From an uncultured Gallionellaceae bacterium (GTDB lineage Bacteria; Pseudomonadota; Gammaproteobacteria; Burkholderiales; Gallionellaceae), in NCBI GenBank assembly GCA_903847155.1, contig CAINCU010000054.1, forward strand, positions 1-64,000: 64,000 nucleotides of DNA, read 5' to 3'. The position numbers and the translations under genes are program-made. The notes under the pieces were generated by a model. The model had not been told where the DNA came from, ran no database searches, and saw only the letters and a program-made list of their open reading frames with translations. This document shows, piece after piece, positions 1 to 62,126 of this stretch. Position 1 is the first letter of the stretch. Every line of letters starts with the position of its first letter.

Positions 1-535
1 GCGGCCGACCAGCCCGCCAACATTCGTCGATCCATTCACCACCGTGCCGGTATCGACATAGCTATTGCTGATGCGCCCGCCCCAAAATGAGACGAACGTT
101 CCGCCGCTGCTGTGACCATAATCATTAGTACCGACCAGCCCGCCGATATTGCTGCCTCCGTAGAATCCGTTGCCACTTACCGTGCCACTGCTGACATGGC
201 TGTCGCTGATAATTCCGTTGTTGTATCCCACCAGCCCGCCGACATTCGACGACCCATTCACCAGTGTGCCAGTATCGACATAAGTATCAACATAGCTGTT
301 GCTGATGCCGCCAGTGCCGCCCTCTCCCCCATCGTTAAGGCCTACCAGTCCACCGACATTAGAACCACCTGTCACGCTGCCGCCGCTGACATGGCTGTCA
401 CTGACCGTGCCGTAGTTGGAGTTATAGCCTACCAACCCGCCGACATTGTTGCCGCCATTCACCGTGCCACTGGAGGAACTGCTGTTGATAATATTGCCTT
501 CGTTCCAGCCAGCCAATGCGCCGACTGTCGAATAA
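1..535 (-). repeat. GLUG repeat block 2 of the adhesin (continues past window)
   Basis: Repeats with the GGLVG core lie near 7, 133, 229, 343, 430 and 508 at 80-125 bp spacing, and the array runs off the left edge. It is preceded by a second FDGAGFTISNLYIN segment near 625-690, so the whole module (IDLAS strand, FDG segment, GLFG, GLUG array) is duplicated relative to block 1. Unit lengths vary more than in block 1. Confidence 0.78.
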
Positions 536-6807: not shown

Positions 6808-8174
6808 ACCACTCCGCTTCTCATGGCGCTTTATATGGTGGCATGCCCCCACAGGGTATCGCCACCGATCCGCTCATCATCAATGCCTGTCTTACCGGCA
6901 ACGTTTCCACCAAGGAAACTAGCCCGCATCTGCCGGTAAGCGTTGAAGAAATCGTTGAAGATGCCGCTGCTGTATTGGAAGCCGGCGCGAGCATGTTGCA
7001 TATCCATGCTCGCGCTGCTGACGGCAGCCCTGCTTGGCAACCGGATATTTACGGGCGTATTTTTGAGGGTATCCGGCGCCACTATCCCGAAGCCATCTTA
7101 GTGGCAACTACCAGCGGTCGGCTGCATGACACTTTGGAAAAACGTGCCGCAGTGCTTGAGTTGGATGGTAGCGCCAAGCCCGACATGGCATCGCTCACAC
7201 TCGGGTCGCTCAATTTTCCCGATCAGGCATCGATCAATGCTCCGCACAACATACAAGCGCTTTGTACGCTTATGCGTAAACAGGGAATAATGCCGGAGCT
7301 CGAAGTCTTCGATCCCGGCATGTTGAATTACGGATTCTATTTGCAGCGCAAAGGCTTTCTTCCCTATGCTTGTTACGTCAATCTGCTGCTCGGCTCGCTC
7401 GGCAGCGTGCCCGGACGCGTACTGGATCTGGCCAATCTGGTGCGCGAGATTCCGCGCGATTGGGTTTGGGCGGCTGCCGGAATCGGTCGTTATCAGCTTG
7501 CCATGAACACTGCCGCATTGCTGATGGGTGGGCATGTGCGGGTGGGACTCGAGGACAATCGTTTTTACGATCCCGCCAGCTGCGCAGCTGCGACGAACCG
7601 GGGGCTGGTCGAGCGTATTGTTCGCCTAGCCAGGGAATTCGGTCGCCCGATTTCTTCCTGCGGCGAAACACACGCCAAACTGCGGCTGGGCCAACCGGAA
7701 AATTGGCATGCCACGCAAGTACTCATCCGGAAAATGCAGAGCGAAGACATGGCGACCGCAATAGCGCTACTCGCCCAATGGAACATGGCACCAGTGCAGG
7801 CAAGTACCTTTATTCCCCAACCCGAACGCGATCATCTGGAACTGGAAAACACCTTCGTCGCCATACTGCAGGGCAAACTGGTAGGCGTGGCAAGCTGGTT
7901 GCGAATCAACGCAACCAGCGCTGAAACCGCCAGCCTGGCAGTGGATCGAGAATTCATCGGCTGCGGTATCGGCCAGAAACTTCAAGAGGCACGGATCGCG
8001 GAAATGCGCAGCAAAGGTATCGTGCAAGTGCGCACAGAGGCGGATAGACCAGACATCATCCGCTGGTACATGGACAAGTTCGGCTATCGCATCGTCGGCA
8101 CCAATAAAAAGAAACATGCCTTCAGCTTGGTGGAACAGGACTGTTGGACTGTGCTAGAACTGGAATTGCATTAA
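6804..8174 (+). CDS. DUF849/BKACE beta-keto acid cleavage enzyme fused to a GNAT acetyltransferase
   Basis: Residues about 20-290 match the BKACE (DUF849, 3-keto-5-aminohexanoate cleavage) fold: the zinc-binding H-x-H motif in LHIHARAADG (near residues 65-70) and the active-site VGLEDN motif (near 248) are both present. Residues about 300-456 form a GNAT domain with the acetyl-CoA loop GCGIGQKL near 384 and a WYMDKFGY motif near 430. The family cleaves beta-keto acids with acetyl-CoA to acetoacetate and a CoA ester; the GNAT half would N-acylate an amine. The start is TTG at 6804, overlapping the preceding stop as TTGA; ATG at 6843 is an alternative that still keeps the whole domain. Confidence 0.8.
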   Translation: MNHSASHGALYGGMPPQGIATDPLIINACLTGNVSTKETSPHLPVSVEEIVEDAAAVLEAGASMLHIHARAADGSPAWQPDIYGRIFEGIRRHYPEAILVATTSGRLHDTLEKRAAVLELDGSAKPDMASLTLGSLNFPDQASINAPHNIQALCTLMRKQGIMPELEVFDPGMLNYGFYLQRKGFLPYACYVNLLLGSLGSVPGRVLDLANLVREIPRDWVWAAAGIGRYQLAMNTAALLMGGHVRVGLEDNRFYDPASCAAATNRGLVERIVRLAREFGRPISSCGETHAKLRLGQPENWHATQVLIRKMQSEDMATAIALLAQWNMAPVQASTFIPQPERDHLELENTFVAILQGKLVGVASWLRINATSAETASLAVDREFIGCGIGQKLQEARIAEMRSKGIVQVRTEADRPDIIRWYMDKFGYRIVGTNKKKHAFSLVEQDCWTVLELELH

Positions 8175-8258
8175 CGTCATAACCAATATTGAAGCCATTT
8201 TTCCATAAGGTCACTTGATGCACTATGAGAGAAATCTGATACCGCAGCCGGAGGCAGC

Positions 8259-8864
8259 ATGGCCACTTTGCTGATGCTCTCTGGCGGAGCCGACAGCGCA
8301 GCTGCCCTTGTCAAGTTGTTGACCGACAACCGCGATCCGGTTTTTGCCCACCACATCATTATTGCAGACAGTGAAAGCCCGACGCGATACAAGGCTGAAA
8401 ACATCGCCTGCGACAGGGTGGTCCAATACTGCCGCGAGCAATACCGCGACTTCGTCTATACCAAGTCGCTCTGGGACTTCCAGCTTCGCTACTTTGGCTG
8501 GAACCTGACCTTGTGCGCCTTTGTCGGCGCGCGAGTGCTACGTTCCTTCCCTGAAGCCAAAATTAATCGGTACGCGGTTGGTGTCATTGACGAACCGCAC
8601 AGCTTGGGCATGTGGAAAGAGCGTGTCGAAGAAGCGCAGGCCACGTTCTACGCGGGACTGACTACCGCCGGATTGACCTACAGGCCGGAAATAGTCTGGC
8701 CCGTCGCGCACATGACGAAGGCCGACGTTCTCAACTTCCTGCCTCCGGCACTGAAAGAGATGGTTTCTTTCTGCCGCAATCCATTCGAAGTCGGCCAGAA
8801 TATGTTCCGCCCCTGTGGCAAGTGCATATCCTGCAATACCCGAAAAAACATCGGACATATATAG
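8259..8864 (+). CDS. QueC-like PP-loop ATPase (7-cyano-7-deazaguanine synthase family)
   Basis: The 201-residue protein starts with the PP-loop LSGGADSAAA (residues 8-17) and ends with a zinc-site set of four cysteines (172, 186, 189, 192, pattern C-x13-CGKCISC), the layout of QueC. QueC turns 7-carboxy-7-deazaguanine into the nitrile preQ0 with ATP and ammonia; relatives are used in natural-product and defence contexts. The middle of the protein diverges from housekeeping QueC as I know it, and no queD, queE or queF lies nearby, so a changed substrate within this cluster is more likely than queuosine synthesis. A strong CCGGAGG ribosome site precedes the ATG. Function beyond ATP-dependent adenylation is not determined. 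Confidence 0.75.
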   Translation: MATLLMLSGGADSAAALVKLLTDNRDPVFAHHIIIADSESPTRYKAENIACDRVVQYCREQYRDFVYTKSLWDFQLRYFGWNLTLCAFVGARVLRSFPEAKINRYAVGVIDEPHSLGMWKERVEEAQATFYAGLTTAGLTYRPEIVWPVAHMTKADVLNFLPPALKEMVSFCRNPFEVGQNMFRPCGKCISCNTRKNIGHI

Positions 8865-50020: not shown

Positions 50021-50818
50021 ATGAAGTATCTTTTCGGGGTGTTGCTGTTCTGCCATGCACTTGCGGCAACAGCGCACCCCGATGCTTTTCCGCAAGTCGC
50101 GTCGGCGTATCTGGTCGAACTCAACAGCGCGCCGCTCTGGGAAAAACAGGCGCACCAGCGCTTGCCGCCTGCCAGCCTGACCAAGCTGATGGTCGCGTTG
50201 CTGGTGGCAGAACACAACCAGCCCGATGCACTCATCACCATCAGCCAAGCCGCAGCGCACGAAACCGGCTCGCGCATCCACCTCAAAGCGGGAACGATTT
50301 TTCGCAGCGACGATTTGCTGGCGGCACTGCTGATCGCTTCGGCCAACGATGCTTGTCACGCTCTAGCTGATGCAATTGGCGGAGACCAGATTCATTTTGT
50401 GCAAATGATGAACCGCCGCGCCAAAGAACTGGGCATGCAGGACACGCATTTCGCCAACGCCTGCGGCCACGATGCGCCGGATCATTTTTCTAGCGCGCAT
50501 GATTTGGCGTTGCTGGCGCACGCAGTATTGCAGCATCCGGCGCTGTTGAAACTCACCTCACGCATCGATGCGCACATCGCCACCCAAGACGGCGCGCACC
50601 AATACCAGTTCGAAAACAAGAACGAGTTGATCGGTCGCTATCCCGGCGCATTCGGCCTGAAAACCGGCCACACTCCCAATGCCGGAAAATGTCTGATCGC
50701 CTACGCCAAGCGCGGCGAGCAGCGCGTGTTGCTGGTCATGCTGCACGGCAAGAATCGCTGGTGGGATACGGTGGATATGCTGGATGCGGCGTTTGCCCAT
50801 GCGCAGCCTGCGCACTGA
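50021..50818 (+). CDS. D-alanyl-D-alanine carboxypeptidase (PBP5-like)
   Basis: The protein of about 265 residues has a signal peptide and the three penicillin-binding motifs: SxxK in PPASLTKL, SxN in IASANDA and KTG in GLKTGHTPNAGKC. It lacks the C-terminal beta domain and amphipathic anchor of PBP5, so it is a short, possibly soluble form. It trims the fifth alanine of peptidoglycan stems. Its end overlaps the next gene by 20-35 bp. Confidence 0.88.
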   Translation: MKYLFGVLLFCHALAATAHPDAFPQVASAYLVELNSAPLWEKQAHQRLPPASLTKLMVALLVAEHNQPDALITISQAAAHETGSRIHLKAGTIFRSDDLLAALLIASANDACHALADAIGGDQIHFVQMMNRRAKELGMQDTHFANACGHDAPDHFSSAHDLALLAHAVLQHPALLKLTSRIDAHIATQDGAHQYQFENKNELIGRYPGAFGLKTGHTPNAGKCLIAYAKRGEQRVLLVMLHGKNRWWDTVDMLDAAFAHAQPAH

Positions 50819-52142
50819 AACTCCGGCAGCAGTGTGGCTATGGCTGACGCTGGCCGTGTGCATCAGCTATGCCAATGTGCTGAGCGGCGATTTTCAATTC
50901 GACGACTACAACGTCATCGTCAATGCAGCGCAAGTTCACACTTGGGAAAATTGGCTCGCACATCTAGGGAGCGGCATCCGCCCCTTGCTCAAATTCAGCT
51001 ACACCCTGAACTGGACCATGGGCACCGGCGTGATCGGCTTTCACCTGACCAATCTGCTGATCCATCTGGCGAACGCGTATCTGGTGTACCGCCTCGCGCA
51101 GGAGTTTGTGCAACAGCAATGGCAACAGGAAAAACTGCAACAAGTGCCGCTGTTCGGCGCACTGCTGTTCGCCGTGCATCCAATCAACACCGAAGCGGTG
51201 ACTTACATCTGCGGGCGTTCGGCCTCTCTCATGGCGCTGTTCTATCTGGCCGCGCTGCTGTGCTACGTGCTTGGTCGCGCGCAACAAAACAAAATGCTGT
51301 TGTATGTCGCCACGCCCTTGCTGTTCGTGCTGGCACTGGGCGTCAAGGAAACAGCGGTGACCTTGCCACTGGCATTGCTGATTTGGGAATTTTGCTGCGG
51401 TGGTCGCTGGAAAATCTCACTCAAACAAATGTGGCCGTGCTGGGTAGTATTGATCGTCGCCACGCTGCTATTTCTGTTCAGCGACAGCTACGCAGCTCAG
51501 ATGCAACGCAGCGCCGCATTCAACGATATGCAAGGCAATGTCGCCACGCAACTCGCCGCCTTCGCCTACCTGATGCGGCAATGGGCGCTGCCGCTATGGC
51601 TGAACATCGACCCCGACCTGCCGCTGCTAAAAAATCTCGCCGACGCATTCTTGCCGCATGCATTGTTTATTGCACTGGTTGGGTTGATGCTGCTGTGCTG
51701 GCGCAAACGCCCGTGGCTCAGCTTTGCACTGGCGTGGGCGATGCTGCATCTGATTCCGCTCTATCTGTTGCTGCCGCGCATCGACATCGCCAACGAACGC
51801 CAACTGTATCTGGCTGCGTGGCCGCTGCTGCTGGCGTTGGTGATTGAGCTGCGTTTGTGGCTGGACAGCAGAATATTCCAAATCGCGATTGCTACACTCC
51901 TGCTCGCCTTTGTCAGTCTGACGGTGCTGCGCAATCAGGTATATGCCAACGAAATCGCACTATGGCAAGACACCGCAATGAAGTCGCCGCACAAAGCGCG
52001 CGTGCATAACAACCTCGGCAGCGCCTATCTGCTTGCTCAGCGTAACGCAGAAGCACGAAGTGAATTCACTACTGCACTGCAACTTGACCCGCAATTGGAC
52101 AAAGCGCGCGACAACCTGCGCCTGCTTGAGAAATTCCCATAG
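50799..52142 (+). CDS. TMTC-like GT-C membrane protein with C-terminal TPR
   Basis: The 447-residue protein has about ten to eleven membrane spans, an early exposed FQFDDYNVIVN (acidic pair in the first loop, as in GT-C glycosyltransferases of the TMTC/DUF1736 type), HLTNLLIHLANAYLVYRL, and VHPINTEAVTYICGRSASLMALFYL typical of this group. One or two TPRs end it (ARVHNNLGSAYLLAQRNAEARSEFTTALQLDP). Predicted to transfer a sugar, or to act in envelope biogenesis. ATG at 50784 is an alternative start. Coupled to the carboxypeptidase gene. Confidence 0.72.
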   Translation: MRSLRTETPAAVWLWLTLAVCISYANVLSGDFQFDDYNVIVNAAQVHTWENWLAHLGSGIRPLLKFSYTLNWTMGTGVIGFHLTNLLIHLANAYLVYRLAQEFVQQQWQQEKLQQVPLFGALLFAVHPINTEAVTYICGRSASLMALFYLAALLCYVLGRAQQNKMLLYVATPLLFVLALGVKETAVTLPLALLIWEFCCGGRWKISLKQMWPCWVVLIVATLLFLFSDSYAAQMQRSAAFNDMQGNVATQLAAFAYLMRQWALPLWLNIDPDLPLLKNLADAFLPHALFIALVGLMLLCWRKRPWLSFALAWAMLHLIPLYLLLPRIDIANERQLYLAAWPLLLALVIELRLWLDSRIFQIAIATLLLAFVSLTVLRNQVYANEIALWQDTAMKSPHKARVHNNLGSAYLLAQRNAEARSEFTTALQLDPQLDKARDNLRLLEKFP

Positions 52143-52251
52143 GGCGGGCCACCCCGTCGCCGCAACAGTTACCGAAGCGAGGCTCTGAGATTGAATTGAA
52201 TATCAAAATGGCGGGTGTGCCTCACCCTACAAATTCACTACTTGCTCGCAA

Positions 52252-52307
52252 GCCCCGTCAATAGGCGATCTACATCATATGACCGCGTGTAGATCGCCTA
52301 TTGACGG
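52252..52307. repeat. Dispersed palindromic repeat, copy G (near-perfect palindrome)
   Basis: This copy has two right-end halves facing each other: CCGTCAATAGGCGATCTACA at 52255 and its exact complement ending at 52307 (TGTAGATCGCCTATTGACGG). The centre is TCATATGACCGCG. It appears to be two inverted half units of the repeat family. Confidence 0.8.
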
Positions 52308-52505
52308 ACATCTTCAGTCAAGTGGATATTGAGAATGTTTGCGGAATTTATGCGATTGGACAAGGTTCCAGATCGTCCGGGTTGTGCCCAATCCGATCAC
52401 ACAAAATATTCTCCAATGGGGACAGTCAATTTTATTATTTGGCTCACACTTCTTCGGCCATTGGTGGCAATGCTGGTATCGGAGGATGTTAAATCTTCAT
52501 TGTGT
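52308..52505. other. Spacer before tmRNA with no gene
   Basis: About 200 bp without a convincing coding frame. It holds a CAATGGGGACAGTC stretch near 52420 resembling the element-like text upstream of murJ. A -10-like TAAAAT lies at 52506-52511. Confidence 0.4.
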
Positions 52506-52517
52506 TAAAATACTCCG

Positions 52518-52842
52518 CATTGTTGTGAGCAAACTTCGGTTTGCGAAAACTCCGGCTCAATAAGGGTTTGTTGGACGGCGGTTCAATTCCGCCCATCTCC
52601 ACCATAAGTGCAGTGATCTCAGTGTGCTTATGATGGGGATGACCTGGTTTCGACAGCGAGCAGATAGGTTTCGGGGCGACACGTCAGGCGATCGACGTAA
52701 ATGAAGCAAGCATGTAAATGCAAACGATGAAAACTTTGCTATGGCGGCCTAAAAAACCGTAAGCCGGGGCTGTTGAGCCTTGTCATACAACACAACTAGA
52801 TGAGCCTCGGGTGATAATGATCCCGAGGCTCATTGATTTTGT
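52518..52842 (+). ncRNA. ssrA: Circularly permuted (two-piece) tmRNA
   Basis: The tRNA-like 3' half comes first: T-arm GGCGG-TTCAATT-CCGCC followed by CATCTCC-A-CCA (ends 52604). After a 30-base linker the 5' half begins GGGGATGACCTGGTTTCGACAG at 52635. GGGGATG pairs with CATCTCC (one G-U) as acceptor stem. GGCTCAA (52554-52560) pairs with TTGAGCC (52773-52779) as helix P2. The tag frame GCA-AAC-GAT-GAA-AAC at 52720 codes ANDENFAMAA and a stop. A UUCG hairpin (52529-52544) lies near the 5' end. The precursor is expected to be cut in the linker to give two RNAs. Exact ends are approximate. Confidence 0.93.
52800..52840 (+). terminator. Rho-independent terminator of tmRNA
   Basis: A 12 bp stem ATGAGCCTCGGG / CCCGAGGCTCAT with loop of about ten bases, then TGATTTTG. 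Confidence 0.88.
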
Positions 52843-53169
52843 GGGGTTGCGATTTTGTTATTGATCGGCCCTAAGTTAAACGTCAGCTTAATGGGCGGTT
52901 GATTTGAGAGATCACTGGCAGGTCCGTGCCATCTGCGAAACTTCACATATGCCAAGCTGTACGACCTGTATTGATTGCGCAACAGACACTGGCGAGTAAA
53001 ATGTTCGACATCCCGCTATCGGCCATGAAGCGACAGTCGAGGTTGAAAACTCGATGCCGGAAAGCTGACATTCGTCACGGACGGCAGCGTGCCATATGGA
53101 GACATTCGCAGCTGTGTTCCGATTGTATGGGTGCATACCGCCACTGCAATCGCCCGACACATGATCGTT
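52843..53169. other. Intergenic stretch between tmRNA and the regulator sites
   Basis: About 330 bp with no recognisable gene. Codon-like stretches on either strand lack ribosome sites and similarity. GGACGGCA near 53080 recurs near 60920 (CACGGACGGCA), perhaps a scrap of a shared repeat. Confidence 0.4.
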
Positions 53170-53205
53170 GTCATGCAAACGTGCAAACTGTCATGACATC
53201 ATGAC
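53170..53205. promoter_or_regulatory. Tandem activator sites upstream of the kinase gene
   Basis: A perfect site GTCATG-ACAT-CATGAC lies at 53190-53205 inside a 26 bp palindrome (AAACTGTCATGA / TCATGACAGTTT, 53185-53210). A decayed site GTCATG-CAAA-CGTGCA lies at 53170-53185, its centre exactly 20 bp away. The same pair occurs at 56437-56472. Likely binding sites of the sigma-54 activator encoded at 55087, about 84 bp upstream of a sigma-54 promoter. Confidence 0.72.
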
Positions 53206-53279
53206 AGTTTAAGTTTATTGCTGTTGAACCATGTCTTTTTAAGCAATTGTTCTTATGGTGATAAAACCTAGTCACGATA

Positions 53280-53294
53280 TGGCATACAGCTTGC
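53280..53294 (+). promoter_or_regulatory. Sigma-54 promoter upstream of the kinase gene
   Basis: TGGCATACAGCTTGC matches the -24/-12 consensus TGGCAyr-N4-TTGC with correct spacing. Predicted start near 53306, giving a leader of about 315 bases to the kinase ATG. A small frame of 61 codons (ATG 53409 to 53591) lies in the leader but has no clear support. Confidence 0.68.
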
Positions 53295-53621
53295 TGTTAA
53301 TTTTAGAGGTGCAAATAGGAAGAGACAGATCGAGGATTGTAGTTCAGAGAACACTCATCGCCATTTGAGCCCAGCACGTTGGCATCATGCGACGACAGAA
53401 GTGGAATGCCTACCGCCGTAGAGCTAATGGGAGAATTGAATGTGCTACTCAAGACGATTTCAAGTTCCTATGAAACGCACCGCGTGCCTTCCAGACACCT
53501 TGCAGTTATTTTGCCGATCACTTTGAAACCTTACCCGAATCTGTTGGCAGGCCAACAATTTCGTGTCCGAAATTGCCAACGCTGTAGTTAAAAACTAGCA
53601 CACGTCAGGACTCTGCAATAA

Positions 53622-55112
53622 ATGCACAAAATAAAAAATCTCCCCACATCGCTTGTAACAGCCTTGGGCTTAGATAGGTTAGGTAAGCGCTTGCGGATGA
53701 CACCGCCTACATTATTCGCAGTCATTAGCTTCGCATTGATAGCAGTGACAGCAATCCTTTCGAGTTTTACTCAATTATCTTTCTTTCGCCAAGCGATCAT
53801 TGACCAAGAATCAGTGGTTATCAGTGAAATGGTGACGGCAATTGTTCGCGAGCAGCAAGCTGGACAACAGCTATCAGCTACGGATATGGATCGCTATACT
53901 GAGGCCAGCGCGCACGCCAAATTGGAGCGAACTTTCCATGCTTTGGAAAATCTTTCCGGCGTGGTTCTCATCAAAGTGTTTGACCGGAACAAAACCATCA
54001 TCTGGTCCAACAAACCCAAACTTATTGGAAAAAGACTGACACACCACCAGGAAGCATTGACTCGTGCGATTAGCGGCGAAGTACGTGCCGCATTTAACGT
54101 GCCTGAACAGGCGACCTTTCCAGAGGAAGAGCTACCTAAATTTCAGCTGATTGAGTTTTACGTTCCGTTTCGCTTGGACGAGTCCAGCGCATCCGATATG
54201 GCAACCAGCGGTGTAGTTTCCATTTACCGTTCTCCAGATGAACTTAATCGCACTATTTGGCATGGTCTGCTTTTGTTGTGGTCGGTAACGTGGGTGGGGG
54301 GCTTGTTGCTGTTTATTGCCCTGTACAGGCTTTTCCTGACTGTTTACCACGGACAGCGCAAGGCGGAATCGCAACTCGCCAAATTGAGTACCGAGCATGA
54401 GCGAATTATCCATATTGAAAAACTCTCGGCAATGGGTCAGTTGGTCAGCGAGATCGCGCATCAGCTGAATAATCCGCTGGTTGGGGTAATCAACCTGGCT
54501 GAACTTGCCGAACGCGAAGTGAACAATCCACAGCGAGTGAAAGAGTTGCTCGGAGAAGTCCGACAAGCAGGCGGGCACTGCCGCGACTTTGTTCAGAAAA
54601 TGCTGCTCCTCAACAAGGTGGCTCGTTATGAGCCGCAGCAAACCGATATGATCGGCCTGGTGCGCGAGACCATTGAATTTTTCCGGCAGAGTCTGGGCAA
54701 TGAGTCAATCGTAACGCTGGAGACACCGGAAAGCCCGATGATGCTTGAAGTGGACCCGGTTCTGATTCGTCACGCCCTGTTCAACCTGATCCACAATGCG
54801 GTCGAAGCTGCGCCCAAGATGCCTGTAGCGGTTTCACTTACGCTCGATACTAGAGACGGTGTTACAGGCTGCCGCCTGACTGTGGCCGATACCGGACCGG
54901 GCCTTAAACCGAATGTCATGGCTAAGCTATTTACGCCATTTTTTACTACGAAGCCGAGTGGTACCGGACTCGGACTTTCTGTGGCGCAGCATATTGCCGT
55001 ATTGCATGGAGGCAGTATTCGCGCAGAAAATAGGGCAGAAGGCGGTTCGTGCTTTACCATCTGGTTACCCAAACAAAGGCGAATGCATGAAATCGAAAAT
55101 TCTGCTGGTTGA
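53622..55112 (+). CDS. Membrane sensor histidine kinase
   Basis: The 496-residue kinase has two membrane spans (about residues 32-54 and 208-236) around a periplasmic sensor of roughly 150 residues, then a short linker, dimerisation helix with EIAHQLNNPLVG (His280), and an ATPase domain with N-box HNAVEA, G1 DTGPG and G2 GTGLGLSVA. The NtrB/DctB-like H-box and pairing with an NtrC-type regulator fit sigma-54 control. It overlaps the regulator gene by 26 bp. The sensed signal is unknown; downstream targets suggest a redox or electron-donor cue. Confidence 0.92.
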   Translation: MHKIKNLPTSLVTALGLDRLGKRLRMTPPTLFAVISFALIAVTAILSSFTQLSFFRQAIIDQESVVISEMVTAIVREQQAGQQLSATDMDRYTEASAHAKLERTFHALENLSGVVLIKVFDRNKTIIWSNKPKLIGKRLTHHQEALTRAISGEVRAAFNVPEQATFPEEELPKFQLIEFYVPFRLDESSASDMATSGVVSIYRSPDELNRTIWHGLLLLWSVTWVGGLLLFIALYRLFLTVYHGQRKAESQLAKLSTEHERIIHIEKLSAMGQLVSEIAHQLNNPLVGVINLAELAEREVNNPQRVKELLGEVRQAGGHCRDFVQKMLLLNKVARYEPQQTDMIGLVRETIEFFRQSLGNESIVTLETPESPMMLEVDPVLIRHALFNLIHNAVEAAPKMPVAVSLTLDTRDGVTGCRLTVADTGPGLKPNVMAKLFTPFFTTKPSGTGLGLSVAQHIAVLHGGSIRAENRAEGGSCFTIWLPKQRRMHEIENSAG

Positions 55113-56445
55113 TGACGACCCATTCACGCGACGTTTGTTTGAAGGATTGCTGCGTGACGCTCCAATTGAGCTACACACAGCGGTCACAGCAGCCGAGGCG
55201 CGAGATAAATACCGTTTAGCCGATTTCAATCTTGCCATCCTCGATCAGCGGTTGCCGGACGGTAACGGTCTGGATCTGTTCGCGGAGATGCGTCGTGAGC
55301 GCCCGCGACAAATGGCTATCCTCATCACTGGCTTCGCCGAAGTGCGCGATGCGGTGCGTGCTGTGCGGGAAGGGCTGTTTGATTACCTGACGAAGCCTTT
55401 CGAGAATCTGGAGGAGCTGGATGCGGTAATCGGCAAGGCTTTGGAAATGGATGCTGCCTATCGCGAGATCGCCGATTTGCGCGAGACGCTGGAAGCACGT
55501 CCAGGGCATCCGATCATCATCGGTCATTCTGCCGTCATGGAAAAACAACTTCTTCAAGTGCGCCAAGTGGCGCCGCTTGACGTCACAGTGCTGATCGAAG
55601 GCGAAAGCGGCACTGGCAAGGAATTGGTCGCCAAGCAAATTCATGCGATGAGCAGTCGCGCCAAGATGCCGCTGCTGGAAATCAACTGCGGGGCGCTGTC
55701 CGAATCGCTGCTGGAGGCCACGTTGTTCGGTTATGAAAAAGGTTCTTTTACCGGTGCGGCAAAGGCAACTCCGGGCTATTTTGAGAATGCCGATGGCGGC
55801 ACGCTTCTGCTCGACGAAATCACGGACATGAGCCAGAAACTCCAGGTTAGTCTTTTGCGTGTGCTACAAGAACGAACTTTTTCCCGCATCGGAAGCACGG
55901 TGCAGCGACCCAGCGACTTTCGTTTGATTTGCGCAACCAACAAATCACTGGAAGCCGAGGTGAAGGCCGGGAATTTTCGTTCCGACCTGTACTACCGCAT
56001 CAATGTTGTAGTGTTGTCTGTTCCTCCATTGCGCCAGCGTCCAGATGATATTTTGCCGCTGGCATTGTTCTTTCTCGACCACTTCAATCGCAAATTCAAT
56101 AAGAATGTAGAAGCCTTTTCGCACGACGCCATTACAGCCATGGAGTCGGCGTACTGGGCTGGCAACGTGCGCGAGTTAAAGCATGCGATAGAGCGTGCTG
56201 TAGTCATCAATGTGGGTGGCCCTATCCGCCCAGCAGACATCGGCATAACCAGCCCTCCTTTTCAGGAAGCAGCACTTGGCACCCAGATACAGCCTTTCCG
56301 CGAAGCACGTGAGCAGTTCGAGCGAGTCTATTTCACAAATCTTCTTCAGGTGGCTGGAGGTAATGTTTCAGAAGCGGCTCGTCTGTCCGGCATCGCCCGC
56401 CAAAATTTTCACACCCACATCAAGCAGCTTGGAATTGTCATGTAA
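55087..56445 (+). CDS. NtrC-family sigma-54-dependent response regulator
   Basis: The 452-residue regulator has a receiver domain (phosphoacceptor Asp53 in LAILDQRLPDG, TKPF motif), an AAA+ domain with Walker A GESGTGKE (about 173-180), the sigma-54 loop GSFTGA (about 219-224, Ser replacing Ala of GAFTGA), Walker B GGTLLLDEI, and a Fis-type helix-turn-helix (GNVSEAARLSGIARQNFHTHIKQLGI). ATG at 55087 fits the family; longer frames into the kinase are spurious. Its final codons overlap the tandem activator sites of the downstream promoter. Confidence 0.95.
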   Translation: MKSKILLVDDDPFTRRLFEGLLRDAPIELHTAVTAAEARDKYRLADFNLAILDQRLPDGNGLDLFAEMRRERPRQMAILITGFAEVRDAVRAVREGLFDYLTKPFENLEELDAVIGKALEMDAAYREIADLRETLEARPGHPIIIGHSAVMEKQLLQVRQVAPLDVTVLIEGESGTGKELVAKQIHAMSSRAKMPLLEINCGALSESLLEATLFGYEKGSFTGAAKATPGYFENADGGTLLLDEITDMSQKLQVSLLRVLQERTFSRIGSTVQRPSDFRLICATNKSLEAEVKAGNFRSDLYYRINVVVLSVPPLRQRPDDILPLALFFLDHFNRKFNKNVEAFSHDAITAMESAYWAGNVRELKHAIERAVVINVGGPIRPADIGITSPPFQEAALGTQIQPFREAREQFERVYFTNLLQVAGGNVSEAARLSGIARQNFHTHIKQLGIVM

Positions 56446-56472
56446 TCATGACTACTGTCATGGAATCGTGAC
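56437..56472. promoter_or_regulatory. Tandem activator sites upstream of the heme-porin gene
   Basis: Two sites GTCATG-TAAT-CATGAC (56437-56452) and GTCATG-GAAT-CGTGAC (56457-56472) have centres 20 bp apart, two helix turns. The second centre is about 84 bp upstream of the -24 element of the sigma-54 promoter at 56548. The first site overlaps the stop of the regulator gene. The arrangement copies that at 53170-53205. Confidence 0.8.
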
Positions 56473-56547
56473 GACACTTCCCCAATAGAGCTGGTGAAAA
56501 CATTATTTAATATATTGTTTTGTTTAATAAAAATAAACTTCCGACTC

Positions 56548-56562
56548 TGGCACGTTGATTGC
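56548..56562 (+). promoter_or_regulatory. Sigma-54 promoter of the heme-porin gene
   Basis: TGGCACGTTGATTGC is a perfect match to TGGCACG-N4-TTGC. The start should be near 56574, leaving about 59 bases to the ATG at 56633. The 75 bp between it and the activator sites is very AT-rich and could be bent by IHF. Confidence 0.85.
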
Positions 56563-56632
56563 GGTGAATACAGTGGTATCCAAGAAACTTTGCGATCCAC
56601 TTTTGTCTCTACAATTAACGAAGGGGAGAAAC

Positions 56633-57958
56633 ATGAAATTCAAACTAAGAGTGTCTGCAACTTTGGCGCTTTGTTCGATGTTGCTGTTTGCTGCGACCAA
56701 CAGCAATGCAATGCCGAACTTTGCAAGGAAATACAACAAGAGCTGTGCGATGTGCCATACCGAAGTTCCAAAATTAAACCGTACCGGGTTTGAATTCAGG
56801 CTGGCAGGTTACCGGTTTCCAGAAGAGATTGGCCAAGCGGAAGGGGAACTCAAAATGAGTGATTTCTTTGCGGCTCGGATACAAATGCAGGAGAACGTTA
56901 CATCAGGTACTAATGCAAATGGATCGGCGGTTACATCAAGTAATCAGATGACATTTTATGAAGGCACTCTGTATCCGTTGACAGGGTCATGGGGAAGTAA
57001 CTTTGCTTCTCTGGTTGAGCTTTCCATGGCTCCAGGCGGAGGCTTTGAAGTGGAAAATGCCTATGTCAGAGGCGTTTGGGGTGATGCAACGACTGGTGGT
57101 TTTTTCTCTGGAAAAATCGGCGTCATGCATCCGCAGGAAGGTTTTGGCGCTTCGGATCGCCCGCTAGGCAATAACCGGCCCTTGATCCAGAAACAACCCT
57201 CCACAGGTAACCCGTTCTACCTTTGGAATATTGATGAAATGGCCGCTGAAGTGGGTTACTACTGGCCCCAGACCGGCACCAACCTGTCCGCAAGGATCAG
57301 CAACGGTGTTATCTGGAAAGGTGATCCAACATCCGGGACTGATCATGCGGATCCTGCGCAAGGCGGTGCTTTAATGAAAAACCCCAACGCGCCAGGCTTG
57401 AATCATAAAAACTGGCAAATCGTATTGAATCAGTATGTCACTAATGATTCCGGCTTCTCGGTTTACTATTACAGTGGCCTAATTCCTTTCGGTGATTCCA
57501 ATGTTGCTCAAACATATACCGAAAACACCTTCAGCAGACTGGCGCTCTATGGAAACTGGTATGTCATACCTAAAAAGTTGAATCTCCTGACGGGCTTTTT
57601 GTCTGCGAAGGATACCTTGGCAGATCCTACTGTGACAGGGACAATATTGGGTGCAAACGGGGGGGCTAACACCACGGTGAGCGGTAGCAAGGTTGGCAGC
57701 AGTGGCGGCTATTTCCTTGAAGCCAATTATGAAGTGATTGACAACCAGTTGGCATTTGGGACTCGTTATGATGTGTTCGATCCATCCAAAAACATCGATC
57801 ACAATACCCAAAAAGCCATATCGGCTTCTGTAAATTATAAACCACTAACCAATGTGCAATTGATTGGGGATTTGGTGCATAAAACTACTGAGGCTGGTGC
57901 AACACCGGGCAACAATACATCTAATCAGCTCTTGGCTAGGGCTATCTTCATTTTCTAA
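56633..57958 (+). CDS. Outer-membrane monoheme cytochrome-porin fusion (Cyc2-like architecture)
   Basis: The 441-residue protein has a signal peptide cleaved after SNA (residue 26), then at once a heme motif MPNFARKYNKSCAMCHTEVPKLN (CxxCH at 38-42), then about 390 residues of alternating beta strands ending in the aromatic RAIFIF, as in a 16-strand outer-membrane porin. A single heme plugged into a barrel is the plan of Cyc2 iron oxidases; the FARKY-x-CxxCH-x-xxPKLNxxG text also occurs in less studied porin-like proteins, so iron oxidation is only a hypothesis. GGGGAGAAAC precedes ATG; promoter is sigma-54; a terminator follows. Confidence 0.75.
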   Translation: MKFKLRVSATLALCSMLLFAATNSNAMPNFARKYNKSCAMCHTEVPKLNRTGFEFRLAGYRFPEEIGQAEGELKMSDFFAARIQMQENVTSGTNANGSAVTSSNQMTFYEGTLYPLTGSWGSNFASLVELSMAPGGGFEVENAYVRGVWGDATTGGFFSGKIGVMHPQEGFGASDRPLGNNRPLIQKQPSTGNPFYLWNIDEMAAEVGYYWPQTGTNLSARISNGVIWKGDPTSGTDHADPAQGGALMKNPNAPGLNHKNWQIVLNQYVTNDSGFSVYYYSGLIPFGDSNVAQTYTENTFSRLALYGNWYVIPKKLNLLTGFLSAKDTLADPTVTGTILGANGGANTTVSGSKVGSSGGYFLEANYEVIDNQLAFGTRYDVFDPSKNIDHNTQKAISASVNYKPLTNVQLIGDLVHKTTEAGATPGNNTSNQLLARAIFIF

Positions 57959-57969
57959 GGCAATCCAGG

Positions 57970-57998
57970 CCGGGATTCGAATCGGATCCCGGTTTTTT
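57970..57998 (+). terminator. Terminator after the heme-porin gene
   Basis: Arms CCGGGAT / ATCCCGG with a nine-base loop, then TTTTTT. Confidence 0.85.
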
Positions 57999-58099
57999 AA
58001 TATCAAATATCAGTAGTGTCCGGTTAAAAATAAAACAGAATCATTTGGTTGCTGTGCAGTGGTGCGGCGACTGCAGAGGCATCCGGCTGCAAAGCGCAT

Positions 58100-58318
58100 G
58101 AAATATGGGTTTTCTCGAAATTTGTAATCTTCGGAATTTCATTTGGAGCTTATGCTGCCGAAATCCCGCCCAACCTAACCGACCAACAGGTTGCGATGCA
58201 CCAAGATAATTATGTTCCAAGTATGAAGGATAGCAAGAAGTTCAGAGACTGATTCGACAGTCTGACCAGAGCATGCAACGCACGTGACAAAAGTATCCAA
58301 ATTACCCGATTTCAATAA
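58100..58318 (+). pseudogene. Internally deleted copy of the cytochrome c'-like gene at 60300
   Basis: The text FVIFGISFGAYAAEIPPNLTDQQVAMHQDNYVPSMK matches the start of the intact gene (GISFGACAAE...DERQDIYVPGMG), then jumps straight to DSKKFRD, a stop, and FDSLTRACNA, matching DSKKFISSFDNLTRACNSCH near its end. About 80 codons are missing and the heme site reads ACNARD, so the second Cys-His is gone. The copy lies in a repeat-flanked spacer between heme-porin and cytochrome genes. Confidence 0.8.
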
Positions 58319-58349
58319 AATTTTATAACGCAATTTTTAGGAGATTCAA

Positions 58350-58700
58350 ATGAACTGCCAAGCTCAAACCCCAATGTTACTCGGTGTGGCCGCCGCTATC
58401 GTACTGGCTTTTTCACTCAATGCATCCGCCGCTGATGCCGATGCAGCGAAGATGTTGGCTCGTGAAAACAGTTGCTTCAAGTGTCACGGCATTGAAAAGC
58501 CCAAAGACGGCCCCTCATGGAAAGAAGTGGCCGACAAATATCGCGGCAAGGCCGGTGCCGAGGAAAGATTGATCAAGCATCTCACCACAGGTGTAAAAGC
58601 CAAGTTCCCCGACGGCCATGAGGAAGAGCACAAGAACATCAAGGACAAAGCGTCGCCGGAAGCAATCAAGAATCTCGTGGACTTTATTCTTTCACTCTAA
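58350..58700 (+). CDS. Periplasmic class I cytochrome c (monoheme), copy 1
   Basis: The 116-residue protein has a signal peptide ending ASA-AD (about residue 27), heme motif SCFKCHG (42-46) and a C-terminal helix ending NLVDFILSL. The distal Met expected in class I cytochromes is not obvious; His or Lys in FPDGHEEEHK might take its place. It resembles small shuttle cytochromes such as MtoD of iron oxidisers by size and position only. AGGAG precedes ATG. It and the next gene are paralogues. Confidence 0.85.
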   Translation: MNCQAQTPMLLGVAAAIVLAFSLNASAADADAAKMLARENSCFKCHGIEKPKDGPSWKEVADKYRGKAGAEERLIKHLTTGVKAKFPDGHEEEHKNIKDKASPEAIKNLVDFILSL

Positions 58701-58747
58701 GCGGCGACAAGAACCAAACGTTCAAACTATAAATCAGGGAGAAACCA

Positions 58748-59104
58748 ATGTGCCGAAAAGCAAGTACCAATATTCTGGCCGGAATGATCGTCAGCGCTAT
58801 TGTCCTTTCGTTTTCGGCACCCGCGTTTGCCCAGGATGCTGCGGCCGCAAAGAGCATGGCGCGCAAAAGCAGTTGTTTGAGATGTCATGCGGTAGGCAAG
58901 AAAAAGGAGGGGCCTTCGTACCAGACCATCGCTTACGAATATAAAGGCAGGGGTGACGCTGCCGACGTATTGGTCAAGCACATCACCACGGGCGAAGACA
59001 GGGTCAAGCTCACCGATGGCCATGTGGAGCTGCACAAGGACATCATGGGCAAAGAATCGCCGGAAAGCATCAGGAATCTTGTGGCGTGGATACTCGCGCA
59101 GTAG
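58748..59104 (+). CDS. Periplasmic class I cytochrome c (monoheme), copy 2
   Basis: The 118-residue paralogue of the preceding gene has a signal peptide ending AFA-QD, heme motif SCLRCHA (43-47), the shared text KKKEGPSYQTIAYEYKG and LTDGHVELHKDIMGKESPESIRNLVAWIL. A Met in DIMGKESPE could be a distal ligand here. GGGAGAAACC precedes ATG. The tandem arrangement suggests a local duplication. Confidence 0.85.
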   Translation: MCRKASTNILAGMIVSAIVLSFSAPAFAQDAAAAKSMARKSSCLRCHAVGKKKEGPSYQTIAYEYKGRGDAADVLVKHITTGEDRVKLTDGHVELHKDIMGKESPESIRNLVAWILAQ

Positions 59105-59154
59105 GCGTTTAGGGAAAACCCAACCAAACACAACTATAAGAATCGGGTGAAAAA

Positions 59155-59376
59155 ATGATTTCAATACGAAAAGAATTTTTCTTGGGTGTGCTCATCGGAT
59201 GCCTGGCTTGGATACCGGTAGCGCTGGCAGTAGATGCGCCTGCGCAACAGAGCCAGCCTGCCAGCGCGGCGGCTCCTGCGGCGTCTGCGGATGCGGCAGC
59301 CATGTCGATGAAAAAGGATGCGACCTGTACCAGATGCTACGATGAAAGCGAGACCAACCTCACCAGAGCGATGTAG
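59155..59376 (+). pseudogene. Truncated DmsE/MtrA-type multiheme cytochrome, heme 1 broken
   Basis: The 73-codon frame has a signal peptide, an Ala/Pro-rich linker and KKDATCTRCYDESETN, the first heme region of periplasmic decaheme proteins (KDATCTRCHDE...). The axial His is Tyr (CTRCY) and the frame stops 11 residues later, directly before a terminator, so nine hemes are missing. It is probably a remnant of an MtrA/MtoA/DmsE-type gene. A functional role for the short product is unlikely but cannot be excluded. Confidence 0.65.
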
Positions 59377-59381
59377 TTTGG

Positions 59382-59412
59382 CGGGGACGATGTTGTGCCC
59401 CGTCTTTTTTTC
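59382..59412 (+). terminator. Terminator after the truncated multiheme gene
   Basis: Arms CGGGG / CCCCG with an 11-base loop followed by TCTTTTTTT. Confidence 0.7.
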
Positions 59413-59486
59413 TCATCTGGAATAGCAAGTGCAATAGCAATAAGCAAGACTGATAACATTTTAATAATTAATAATGCGAGGAAATC

Positions 59487-60083
59487 ATGGATAACAAACC
59501 AGGCATGTTGAAGAGCACATGGAATATGCTGAAAACACCAAGTGCAAAATATTCCCTACTGGCGTTGCTGGTGGTGGGCTTCTTCGCCGGCATCATTTTC
59601 TGGGGCGGCTTTAACACTGCCATGGAAGCAACGAATCGATTGGAATTCTGTATTGGTTGTCATGAAATGCGCGACACCGTGTATCAGGAATACAAGAATA
59701 CTATTCACTACTCGAACCGTACCGGTGTGCGCGCTGTCTGTTCCGATTGCCACGTACCCAAGGATTGGGGTCACAAGATGTTGCGCAAGATTCAGGCAAG
59801 CAACGAAATCTGGGGCAAGCTCACTGGTTTTGTGGATACGCCTGAGAAATTTGAGGCGCACCGCATGGAACTGGCAACTCACGAATGGGCGCGCATGAAG
59901 GCTTCCAATTCGCGTGAATGCCAAAACTGCCATAATTTCGAAGCCATGAGCGGCGAGAAACAAAAGCAGACCATCTTCAACAAGCACATGAAGGCGAAAG
60001 ACGATGGCCAGTCTTGTATCGACTGCCATAAGGGTATTGCCCACCATCTGCCGAAAGAGTACGTGGATCCTGATGAGCAGTAA
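59487..60083 (+). CDS. NapC/NirT-type tetraheme quinol dehydrogenase (CymA-like)
   Basis: The 198-residue protein has one N-terminal membrane anchor (about residues 22-42) and four heme motifs: CIGCH (55-59), CSDCH (85-89), CQNCH (145-149) and CIDCH (177-181). This matches the NapC/NirT/CymA family that passes electrons between the quinone pool and periplasmic cytochromes. In iron oxidisers the same kind of protein may run in reverse, feeding the quinone pool. GAGGAAATC precedes ATG. Confidence 0.93.
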   Translation: MDNKPGMLKSTWNMLKTPSAKYSLLALLVVGFFAGIIFWGGFNTAMEATNRLEFCIGCHEMRDTVYQEYKNTIHYSNRTGVRAVCSDCHVPKDWGHKMLRKIQASNEIWGKLTGFVDTPEKFEAHRMELATHEWARMKASNSRECQNCHNFEAMSGEKQKQTIFNKHMKAKDDGQSCIDCHKGIAHHLPKEYVDPDEQ

Positions 60084-60299
60084 TGTAAGTTGCTAACGCC
60101 ACTTTCGGAACGAAAGCGTGCTGAACTTATTGAAACGCTGTTTACTTGGGCTAAAGCACGCGGCACAACGTTGGACATTAGTGATCGCTGGAAATGCAAA
60201 ATACCAAAAGAGGTTCGATGACCTCTTGCTAGCGAGAATGGATGCCGGCAGATTCACTATCGAACACGTAAACAGGACTGTATGCATTATAGGAAGATA

Positions 60300-60803
60300 A
60301 TGAAAGTCATTTTCATAGCATCGTTTTTTGTATTCATTGGAATTTCATTTGGAGCTTGTGCTGCCGAAAATCGGTACAAGCTATCCAACAAACAGGTTGA
60401 TGAGCGCCAAGATATTTATGTACCTGGTATGGGCGAAATTATGGGCGCCACGCAAATGCGCCACGCAAAGCTATGGTTCGCCGGTAAGAACAAAAACTGG
60501 GGACTTGCGAGTTATGAATTAGATGAAATCAAGGAAGGATTAGCTGATGCAATCAAATACCATCCTGTGTTCAAAAAAGACGCGCCTATTGCAGCCATTC
60601 TTGAAGAATTCACAAACCCACCACTAAATGAACTTGCGAAAGCTATTGAGGCAAGGGATAGCAAGAAATTTATAAGCTCGTTCGACAATCTTACGCGAGC
60701 ATGTAATTCATGCCATGAAGCAGCTAGTCAGGAATTCATCATTATCAAGCGCCCCAGTATTTTGTCCTTCAGCAATCAAGAATTTTCTGTTAAGAAAAAG
60801 TAG
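60300..60803 (+). CDS. Periplasmic monoheme cytochrome with C-terminal heme (c'-like)
   Basis: The 167-residue protein has a signal peptide ending near GACAAE and a helical body with heme motif RACNSCHEA (135-139) near the C-terminus, the layout of class II cytochromes c'. It may hold a four-helix bundle; the text EFIIIKRPS after the heme is unusual. GGAAG precedes ATG at 60300. A deleted second copy lies at 58100-58318, so the gene was duplicated inside the cluster. Confidence 0.75.
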   Translation: MKVIFIASFFVFIGISFGACAAENRYKLSNKQVDERQDIYVPGMGEIMGATQMRHAKLWFAGKNKNWGLASYELDEIKEGLADAIKYHPVFKKDAPIAAILEEFTNPPLNELAKAIEARDSKKFISSFDNLTRACNSCHEAASQEFIIIKRPSILSFSNQEFSVKKK

Positions 60804-61277
60804 TCTGATTAAAACTTGCATCAACATCAACGCAAGTCTGTTTTTCACAAAAGCGAGCGTCGTTTAAGGGCCGAAAGCCGAATTTTGATCTGCACAATTG
60901 GCAGCTACAAAGCAGACGATTGCCACGGACGGCAATGGGTTATCAAGAGACTATCGGTATACCAATCCACATCAGATTGAAGGGCTGCAACATGAAGTGA
61001 AGCAGTCACTCATTTGATCCACCTTGTAGGCCGCCTTTGGGTCGTTTGCTGTCAACCTCCTCCACATTCATGAGCCTGATGTCGCGATCCAAGAACGGGA
61101 TCATGCCTGCACTTACGCAGCCACCCGGACATGGGTGGTGTGTTCTGTTCCATCACCCCAATATCATTTCCCGCGTTCAAATATCTATGTCTGAGGAATA
61201 TGTGTTAACGCAAGTCCTGATGCCATTCATGCATTCTTAACTCAGGACGGCAATTAGAACCGGGAGCAGCCTGGGTT
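60804..61277. other. Intergenic stretch without a recognisable gene
   Basis: About 470 bp after the last cytochrome gene. Short frames here lack ribosome sites and similarity. GACGATTGCCACGGACGGCA near 60908 partly matches text near 53070-53095. It may be remnant sequence. Confidence 0.4.
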
Positions 61278-62126
61278 TCAAGGCTTCATCTGATAAAAAC
61301 GTGTAGCCAGCGCTGCACCCTTGATGCTGTCAAACCGTTCGCCCATAGCGGTATCGAGTTTGGTCAGCCTGTCTTCGGGCAACGGGTGGGTCTTGAACAA
61401 CAGCGCGACGCTTCCTTCGTCTTTGGCGATGTGTCCAATCTGTTGCAATACGCTGGGCAAGCCGTAAGCATCGTATCCGGCACGTGTCGCCAGCACCACG
61501 CCGATGCGATCCGCCTCAAACTCGGCATCCTTGTCCAGACCGCGCGCGACGATCTCCGCGCCGCTGCCGATCATCTGCTGCACTTTGTCATCCCCGCCGA
61601 CTTGTCTGGAAAACAGTTTGCCGCCCGCATCGACCAGCTTGCTCTGCTGCAATATTTTCAGGTGATGTTTGCGAATGACGTGGCCGATCTCGTGCCCCAG
61701 CACACCGGCCAAATCCGCTTCGTTTTGCAGCAGGCGATACAGCCCCAGCGTGACGTACACATAGCCGCCGGGCGCGGCGAAGGCGTTCACATCCTCCGAC
61801 TGAATCACCCCGAAATGCCAGGGCAGATCGGCTCGCTCACTCTGGCTTGCCACCCACTCGCCAACCTGATTCACATACTTTTGCAACTTGGCATCTTTGA
61901 CCAAGGGTGCTGCACCCAGCAGGTTGCCGGCGATCTGTCTGCCGATGGCGATCTCTTCGCTTTCGTCCGGGCCTCTGACTTCCTTGGCCACATCCACTGC
62001 ATCAAGCAGCTTGGGATTGACCTGCGATTTGAGTTGATCGCGCAGCGAGCCAAAATCCAGTGCGGCGCTGTTCGCTGCCAGCATCAACAAACCTATTAGC
62101 GGGAGATATCTCATCATAGTTTTCAT
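61278..62126 (-). CDS. M48-family metalloprotease, exported
   Basis: The 282-residue protein has a signal peptide, the zinc motif HEIGH (about residues 147-151) in AGVLGHEIGHVIRKHHLK and a third ligand Glu in EFEADRIGVVLATRAGYD, and ends with KTHPLPEDRL. It resembles the BepA/YfgC-like protease core without the TPR domain, thus a periplasmic quality-control protease. It forms an operon with the SH3-domain gene upstream (9 bp gap). Confidence 0.9.
   Translation of the reverse strand: MKTMMRYLPLIGLLMLAANSAALDFGSLRDQLKSQVNPKLLDAVDVAKEVRGPDESEEIAIGRQIAGNLLGAAPLVKDAKLQKYVNQVGEWVASQSERADLPWHFGVIQSEDVNAFAAPGGYVYVTLGLYRLLQNEADLAGVLGHEIGHVIRKHHLKILQQSKLVDAGGKLFSRQVGGDDKVQQMIGSGAEIVARGLDKDAEFEADRIGVVLATRAGYDAYGLPSVLQQIGHIAKDEGSVALLFKTHPLPEDRLTKLDTAMGERFDSIKGAALATRFYQMKP

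Follow-up and report, generated by a model that had tools for sequence, protein, structure and literature searches.

What turns on the gene for an outer-membrane heme-porin? The question is raised by a 64,000-nucleotide stretch of contig CAINCU010000054.1 (hereafter the window), from an uncultured Gallionellaceae bacterium, in which three genes stand in line on the forward strand: a sensor histidine kinase (53622..55112), a sigma-54-dependent response regulator that overlaps the end of the kinase gene (55087..56445), and a Cyc2-like monoheme cytochrome-porin of 441 amino acids (56633..57958), the heme-porin. Palindromic sites followed by a sigma-54-type promoter lie both before the kinase gene and at the end of the regulator gene. 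We read the block that contains these genes as a sigma-54 two-component switch that is complete in itself, controls an outer-membrane electron conduit, and regulates its own genes, and give this reading a probability of roughly 80%. Sequence and conservation together establish the operator and promoter predicted for the heme-porin.

At the end of the regulator gene, operator 1 (56436..56453, forward strand) contains an exact GTCATG-N4-CATGAC palindrome (56437-56452) and overlaps the regulator stop codon (TAA, 56443-56445), a position that is the same in orthologues; operator 2 (56456..56473, forward strand) lies 20 bp downstream, with one mismatch in its palindrome (56457-56472). Upstream of the kinase gene, the proximal operator (53185..53210, forward strand) is a 26-bp palindrome with the exact GTCATG-N4-CATGAC at 53190-53205, and a degenerate distal half-site (53169..53186, forward strand) carries three mismatches (53170-53185). 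An earlier account of this DNA made from the letters alone (the sequence-only reading) had described four copies of the palindrome in a duplicated pair. Its 20-bp spacing between site centers is correct, and two exact copies and one with a single mismatch are present; the copy at 53170, however, is the one with three mismatches, and the wording of a duplicated pair has to give way to one strong 26-bp palindrome plus a decayed half-site on the kinase side.

A weight matrix built from 36 sites in 18 relatives (window excluded; L033 dropped as a near-duplicate of L032) ranked 56456, 53189, and 56436 highest of all window 18-mers on both strands. Operator 2 had the highest score (25.2) and the proximal kinase-side operator (18-mer at 53189) the second highest (23.2); none of 3 million random 18-mers reached the scores of these three sites. 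The distal half-site scored 5.2 and ranked 24 among all strand-specific window 18-mers. In all 3,080,294 bases of the genome, 53190 and 56437 are the only places with the exact palindrome (control, 0), and exact TGTCAY-N5-CRTGAC is confined to the three strong window sites. Once up to two mismatches are allowed, the palindrome is hardly more frequent than its reversed control (83 vs. 76), so only near-exact sites are informative; the palindrome as a genome-wide regulon motif was rejected, as there was no clear excess over controls at one or two mismatches. The sigma-54 pattern TGGCAY-N5-TTGC, with 33 occurrences vs. 2 + 2 for a reversed-pattern control, is thus enriched in the genome, and only two of these 33 promoters, both in the window, have a matrix match above 9 within 300 bp upstream (best score upstream of the others, 8.8). 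The genome search for palindromes near sigma-54 promoters that the sequence-only reading had proposed therefore singles out the two window promoters, which are probably the whole regulon in this genome.

Both sigma-54-type promoters are present on the forward strand. That of the heme-porin gene (TGGCACGTTGATTGC, 56548..56562) matches the consensus TGGCAC-N5-TTGC, with GG/GC, perfectly, and that before the kinase-regulator genes (TGGCATACAGCTTGC, 53280..53294) has one mismatch; one-mismatch matches as such are not above chance in the window (8 observed vs. 9.3 expected). Counted from the first base of the proximal 18-mer, the -24 element lies 92 bp away in the heme-porin unit and 91 bp away in the kinase unit, and the earlier figure of about 84 bp holds if counted from the site center. 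The two operator-promoter spacers have AT fractions of 0.72 and 0.69. The genome has one match to rpoN.

The arrangement recurs in relatives. A regulator scan of named genome contigs returned 25 loci, of which 19 are orthologues in which the end of the regulator can be read; fragments L026 and L038 and distant matches L037, L039, L041, and L042 were left out of the operator set. The kinase core adjoins the regulator in 19/19 orthologues, and the downstream genes vary. Two palindromic sites 20 bp apart (consensus approximately TGTCAYGAAATCRTGACA) lie at the regulator stop codon of the orthologues, followed in 16/19 by a sigma-54-type promoter 89–124 bp past the start of the second site. In a leave-out test, for which the tested locus was omitted (the whole clade for eight Rhodoferax-type loci; both members for L032/L033), the best predicted site ranked first in all 19 loci, and both sites ranked first and second in 14 of them. 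Five further loci (L168, L170, L171, L172, and L173; 5–11 kb each) had not been used for the matrix, L169 having been dropped because it shares a contig with L022; L171 and L172 are close kin. The two best matches in each of these five are the predicted operator pair at the regulator end, 20 bp apart. Promoters follow at 92 bp in L168, 93 bp in L170, and 70 bp in L173, and only at about 243 bp in L172; the L171 sequence ends too early for a promoter reading. The layout that the sequence-only reading proposed to look for in relatives, a tandem operator and promoter at the regulator end, is therefore found repeatedly, the further loci included.

The regulator (E ≤ 1e-130, up to four candidates scored per genome) occurs in at least 7 of 399 genomes of the order, its own included. 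The exact pattern TGTCA-N8-TGACA-NN-TGTCA has no match in 369 genomes of the class; the window pair does not match that pattern either. Searches for plasmid relatives, with the regulator at E 1e-90 and the porin at 1e-5, were without yield. In L022, L025, L030, and L040, the kinase gene also carries sigma-54-like sites at its end, 50–75 bp ahead of the regulator start. L019, from a lake metagenome-assembled genome, has two kinase-regulator pairs side by side in opposite directions (296-1666, reverse strand; 5590-8365, forward strand); at the end of its second regulator a decayed operator pair is visible by eye (matrix score 0.7).

Operator-promoter distances in 16 relatives fall at 89–95 bp (8 loci), 102 bp (1), 112–114 bp (6), and 124 bp (1), approximately one DNA turn apart (R = 0.73 at 10.5 bp), and the window spacings of 92 and 91 bp belong to the main class; the 10 distinct distances give R = 0.63, with P of about 0.005 vs. 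random distances. L032, L033, and L034, which have no promoter at the usual distance, were dropped from this statistic, and the further loci were left out of it. A conserved binding site for integration host factor between operator and promoter was considered and rejected: the best window matches have one mismatch (heme-porin unit) and two mismatches (kinase unit), and among 15 relatives the site is perfect in L024, has one mismatch in L031, and has two to four in the others.

Several observations weigh against the switch as we read it. Periods near 21 bp score similarly in the spacing analysis (about 0.67) and the 112–114 bp group comes mainly from one clade, and phasing is for these reasons taken as supporting evidence only. 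The sites in the training loci were placed by eye (20-bp register, regulator end), which makes the leave-out ranks partly dependent. The pair is imperfect in several loci: L029, L032/L033, and L040 have one weak or absent site, L023 has a site that ranks fourth, and in L034 both sites have low scores. L032/L033, L034, and L172 are without a good promoter at the usual distance. Three of the four distant control loci (L037, L039, L041, and L042) have no match above 10.3, but L042 has a match of 20.3 inside coding sequence, and score alone is no proof. On the kinase side, the distal copy of the operator is degenerate, the leader from the 53280 promoter to the kinase start would be approximately 320–390 nt long, and no operator was found in 24 relatives over a range that starts 600 bp ahead of the kinase reading frame and reaches into it as far as the kinase core (outside the frame the best score is 8.4; L173 reaches 13.3 inside the kinase frame; L170 was omitted, as its contig stops within the kinase). 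Within the predicted leader of the kinase gene sits a 54-codon open reading frame (ORF; 53427-53591) ending in CQRCS.

The protein encoded between the two site sets is the NtrC-type activator with a Fis-like end that had been described from the sequence: it combines a receiver domain (PF00072, E = 1e-20), a sigma-54 interaction AAA domain (PF00158, E = 8e-67), and a Fis-type helix-turn-helix (PF02954, HTH_8/Fis, E = 1.6e-6). A GSFTGA motif is present in the protein sequence, presumably at the GAFTGA loop position of sigma-54 activators. The regulator remains below the curated NCBIfam cut-offs for AtoC (389/714 bits), ZraR (334/760), GlrR (344/763), and NtrC (323/559), and among the best 25 models no named equivalog cut-off was reached. 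The kinase has a HisKA-HATPase core and two membrane helices, predicted by a model, that flank a Cache-like domain; the Cache match is weak (E = 0.002, under the Pfam cut-off). Its start may be ATG 53697 instead, as several orthologues begin near there; the leader would then be almost 400 nt long. Residue C320, 40 residues past H280, is invariant in 16/16 kinases; a role as a redox sensor like RegB was considered and dropped, such a cysteine presumably being common in this class of kinase.

We propose that the membrane kinase, with its Cache-like sensor, would phosphorylate the regulator, which as adjacent dimers would bind the tandem TGTCAYG-N4-CRTGACA operators straddling its own stop codon; these operators, the predicted upstream enhancer, are conserved. 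DNA looping would then allow contact with sigma-54 RNA polymerase approximately 92 bp downstream and turn on the Cyc2-like gene. The further operator 91 bp before the second sigma-54-type promoter would raise transcription of the kinase-regulator genes, a positive feedback. The sigma-54 transcript of the effector would cover the heme-porin gene alone: a terminator-like hairpin with a T run (57967..57995, forward strand; 13 base pairs, of which 7 are GC) stands directly behind that gene, so that the transcript probably ends there. The region has 13 terminator-like matches, where shuffled sequence would give 9.9, and this one has the longest stem. The hairpin agrees with the earlier claim that the porin gene is the sole effector target, and the cytochrome genes at 58350-60803 would have to rely on different promoters. 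It is very probable that the regulator drives the gene that follows it.

The sequence-only reading had the activator drive both the heme-porin gene and its own operon. The former part is supported by conservation in orthologues; support for the latter is limited to this genome, where the kinase-side operator (23.2) and a promoter at the standard spacing (91 bp) predict positive autoregulation. The rival account that fares best, which we nevertheless consider unlikely, is that the regulator drives only the heme-porin, from 56548, that the upstream palindrome and promoter are non-functional, and that the kinase-regulator promoter is ordinary and constitutive. The absence of a kinase-side unit in all 24 relatives speaks for it, as do the degenerate distal site and the mismatch in the promoter; the nearest relative (L018, regulator 78% identical) has a very similar promoter-like TGGCATACATCTTGC without an operator. 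Also in its favor, the comparable aioXSR genes of Rhizobium NT-26 are not induced by arsenite (PMC6011840; here and below, published sources are represented by excerpts). On the other side, an operator of score 23.2 stands 91 bp before its promoter, matching the 92 bp of the heme-porin unit, in a genome in which only 2 of 33 such promoters have an operator, and sigma-70-like promoters are not in excess in 52800-61300 (10 observed vs. 9.5 expected). If real, the feedback loop of the proposed switch would be confined to this genome or shared only with relatives not yet sampled. We rejected the idea that the upstream operator is left over from a second, lost regulator gene, as the two pairs of L019 might suggest: with 13 window proteins as queries, tblastn on 52833-53620 found no match below E 0.05, and neither blastn nor tblastx against eight loci had any match.

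Several enhancer-binding proteins are usual in a bacterium, and one other than the neighboring regulator might read the operators. We hold this to be highly improbable, as the operator stands at the end of the regulator gene in 19 loci and in five further loci, exact consensus matches are otherwise absent from the genome, and L037 and L039, two distant paralogue loci, lack an operator at the regulator end. Least credible of all is that the palindromes are hairpins, terminators, or chance inverted repeats: 53185-53210 does score as a terminator-like stem, and at two mismatches the palindrome is hardly commoner than its control, but the T tail after 53210 is poor, and consensus, 20-bp pairing, and promoter spacing are kept in orthologues with different downstream genes.

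Published criteria for Cyc2 comprise the motif AXPXFAR[QK][TY], a single CXXCH, PXL, and a length above 365 amino acids (PMC8406198). The window heme-porin has AMPNFARKY, three residues, CAMCH, TEV, and PKL, with one CXXCH in its 441 amino acids. Against a profile of eight congeneric Cyc2-like proteins it scored 34.0 bits vs. a best of 9.5 in 300 shuffles, and only its N-terminal approximately 65–130 residues align with the Cyc2-like proteins of the genus. As to the 16-strand porin barrel of Cyc2, an AlphaFold2 model, from an alignment of only two rows, had a confidence (pLDDT) of 26, and no PDB sequence matched at E ≤ 10. Matches to the heme-porin (E ≤ 1) occur in 26 of 34 genomes of the genus, its own counted, and are N-terminal except for the match to itself; eight genomes are without one, and the strict Cyc2 motif is present in 7 of 9 congeneric ORFs extracted. 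We treat the protein as a Cyc2-type candidate iron oxidase. Most Gallionellaceae iron oxidizers are reported to have Cyc2 (PMC10734462), and the Cyc2-like content therefore suggests an iron-oxidizing, Gallionellaceae-like host.

The genes that follow the operator in other genomes are of several kinds. Directly behind regulator and operator, L170 (69-3413) has a DmsE/MtrA-type decaheme cytochrome and an MtrB/PioB barrel, which score above the cut-offs of TIGR03508 and TIGR03509 and have chains A and B of 6r2q as their best PDB sequences; we take 6r2q to be the MtrCAB complex, though the entry names differ. The two genes are a candidate for a regulated mto/mtr-like pair. In L168, a heme-porin with an N-terminal match to that of the window is joined by a diheme cytochrome and by a NapC that shares 60% identity with its window counterpart, and multihaem cytochromes lie behind the operator in L020 and L024. 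EB_dh cytochromes follow in L021, L025, L027, and L032 by Pfam, and by resemblance or weak matches only in L023, L028, L029, L033, L034, L036, L172, and L173. Molybdoenzymes nearest to PhsA, below its cut-off, lie some genes further down in L032, L035, and L040, and the heme-porin of L019 fails the strict Cyc2 motif. L030 and L031 have similar-looking clusters of small cytochromes, a tetraheme protein, and an iron-sulfur protein behind the regulator; the iron-sulfur protein is TtrB/DsrO-like by NCBIfam in L030 and by resemblance in L031.

Kinase sensors also vary, from weakly Cache-like in the window to dCache_3 in L032 and L035 and PAS-GAF in L040. What appears constant across these loci is the kinase core, the regulator, and the operator, and the recurrence of the stop-codon operator set in distant bacteria looks like a reusable respiration switch. 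A more extended view, to which we give even odds, is that of a traveling regulatory cassette for electron transfer in the periplasm and outside the cell: kinase, regulator, and stop-codon tandem enhancer would control whichever electron conduit follows, sensor domains would be swapped, and here a front enhancer and promoter would have been acquired, giving positive feedback for a Cyc2-type candidate iron oxidase.

Four cytochrome genes on the forward strand complete the block in the window: two class I cytochromes c (58350..58700 and 58748..59104; Pfam Cytochrom_C), a NapC/NirT tetraheme cytochrome (59487..60083; PF03264), and a monoheme cytochrome (60282..60803) with a weak cytochrome c' match (E = 0.0015, below the Pfam cut-off). 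With the Cyc2-like porin, the class I cytochromes and NapC/NirT would supply parts for a path from the outer membrane to the quinone pool. The block is flanked by genes for a TPR protein (50784-52142) and an M48 peptidase (61278-62126). In the congener L125 the aligned ends of these flanks are 11 bp apart and the interval 52143-61277 is missing; in the congener L126 other genes lie between the same flanks. Neither congener has the kinase, the regulator, the porin, or the cytochromes at this place. A search of 60 relatives, 33 of them congeners, did not turn up the regulator (E ≤ 1e-100, up to 27 candidates scored per genome). The 9-kb block, with its permuted transfer-messenger RNA (tmRNA), therefore looks acquired; loss in the congeners is a possible alternative. 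Two tmRNA genes are present in the genome, the permuted one in the block (52512-52843, forward strand; tag ANDENFAMAA) and a standard one-piece gene on contig C15 (L148, 758-1126; tag ANDEKYALAA). Of 34 genomes of the genus, 6 have a match to the beta-type tmRNA family that exceeds the Rfam cut-off.

Autoregulated sigma-54 two-component systems are already known, ZraSR (HydHG) of Escherichia coli among them, in which the sigma-54 regulator has binding sites ahead of both its own operon and the effector gene zraP (PMC7657598). Proteins annotated as ZraR are 41–42% identical to the window regulator, which falls far below the ZraR model cut-off, as noted above; the ZraSR effector is a chaperone rather than a cytochrome, and the excerpted account of that system places no operator in the regulator stop codon (PMC7657598). 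AioXSR/aioBA is similar in having a kinase and sigma-54 regulator beside a redox operon and a TGGCAC-N5-TTGC promoter (PMC6011840, PMC7533571), and differs in its effector; the likeness is by description. In AioXSR, the aioX gene is found directly upstream of the kinase gene; in the window, no ORF of AioX size is present from the TPR gene to the kinase (longest stop-free stretch in 52143-53696, 98 codons; the rest of the genome was not searched). In the iron oxidizer Acidithiobacillus ferrooxidans, the kinase and sigma-54 regulator AFE_0026/0027 lie upstream of a sigma-54-dependent lithotrophy gene, tetH, although what they control is tetrathionate hydrolase (PMC5506826). There, sigma-54 promoters are given for tet and cyd only and sigma-70 promoters for the others mapped, among them that of the rus operon, which begins with cyc2 (PMC5506826).

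For Sideroxydans ES-1, three cyc2 genes are described as preceded by transcriptional regulators, with nothing more stated in the main text as excerpted (PMC8788666), and a term search of a 2026 paper on the Mto pathway returned neither "regulator" nor "two-component" (PMC13390432). Among the titles listed by a limited search of open-licence PMC articles, which is no proof of absence, none dealt with control of cyc2 or mto genes by a sigma-54 two-component regulator. What appears to be new here is a conserved stop-codon enhancer linked to exchangeable electron-transfer genes, together with its predicted use before a Cyc2-like gene.

On/off control of outer-membrane conduits in iron-oxidizing and electroactive bacteria seems little known. 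The operator, promoter, and regulator defined here are directly testable, and the operator predicts targets in other genomes from their sequence alone. The signal of the kinase, in turn, could reveal what the cell senses before building its conduit.

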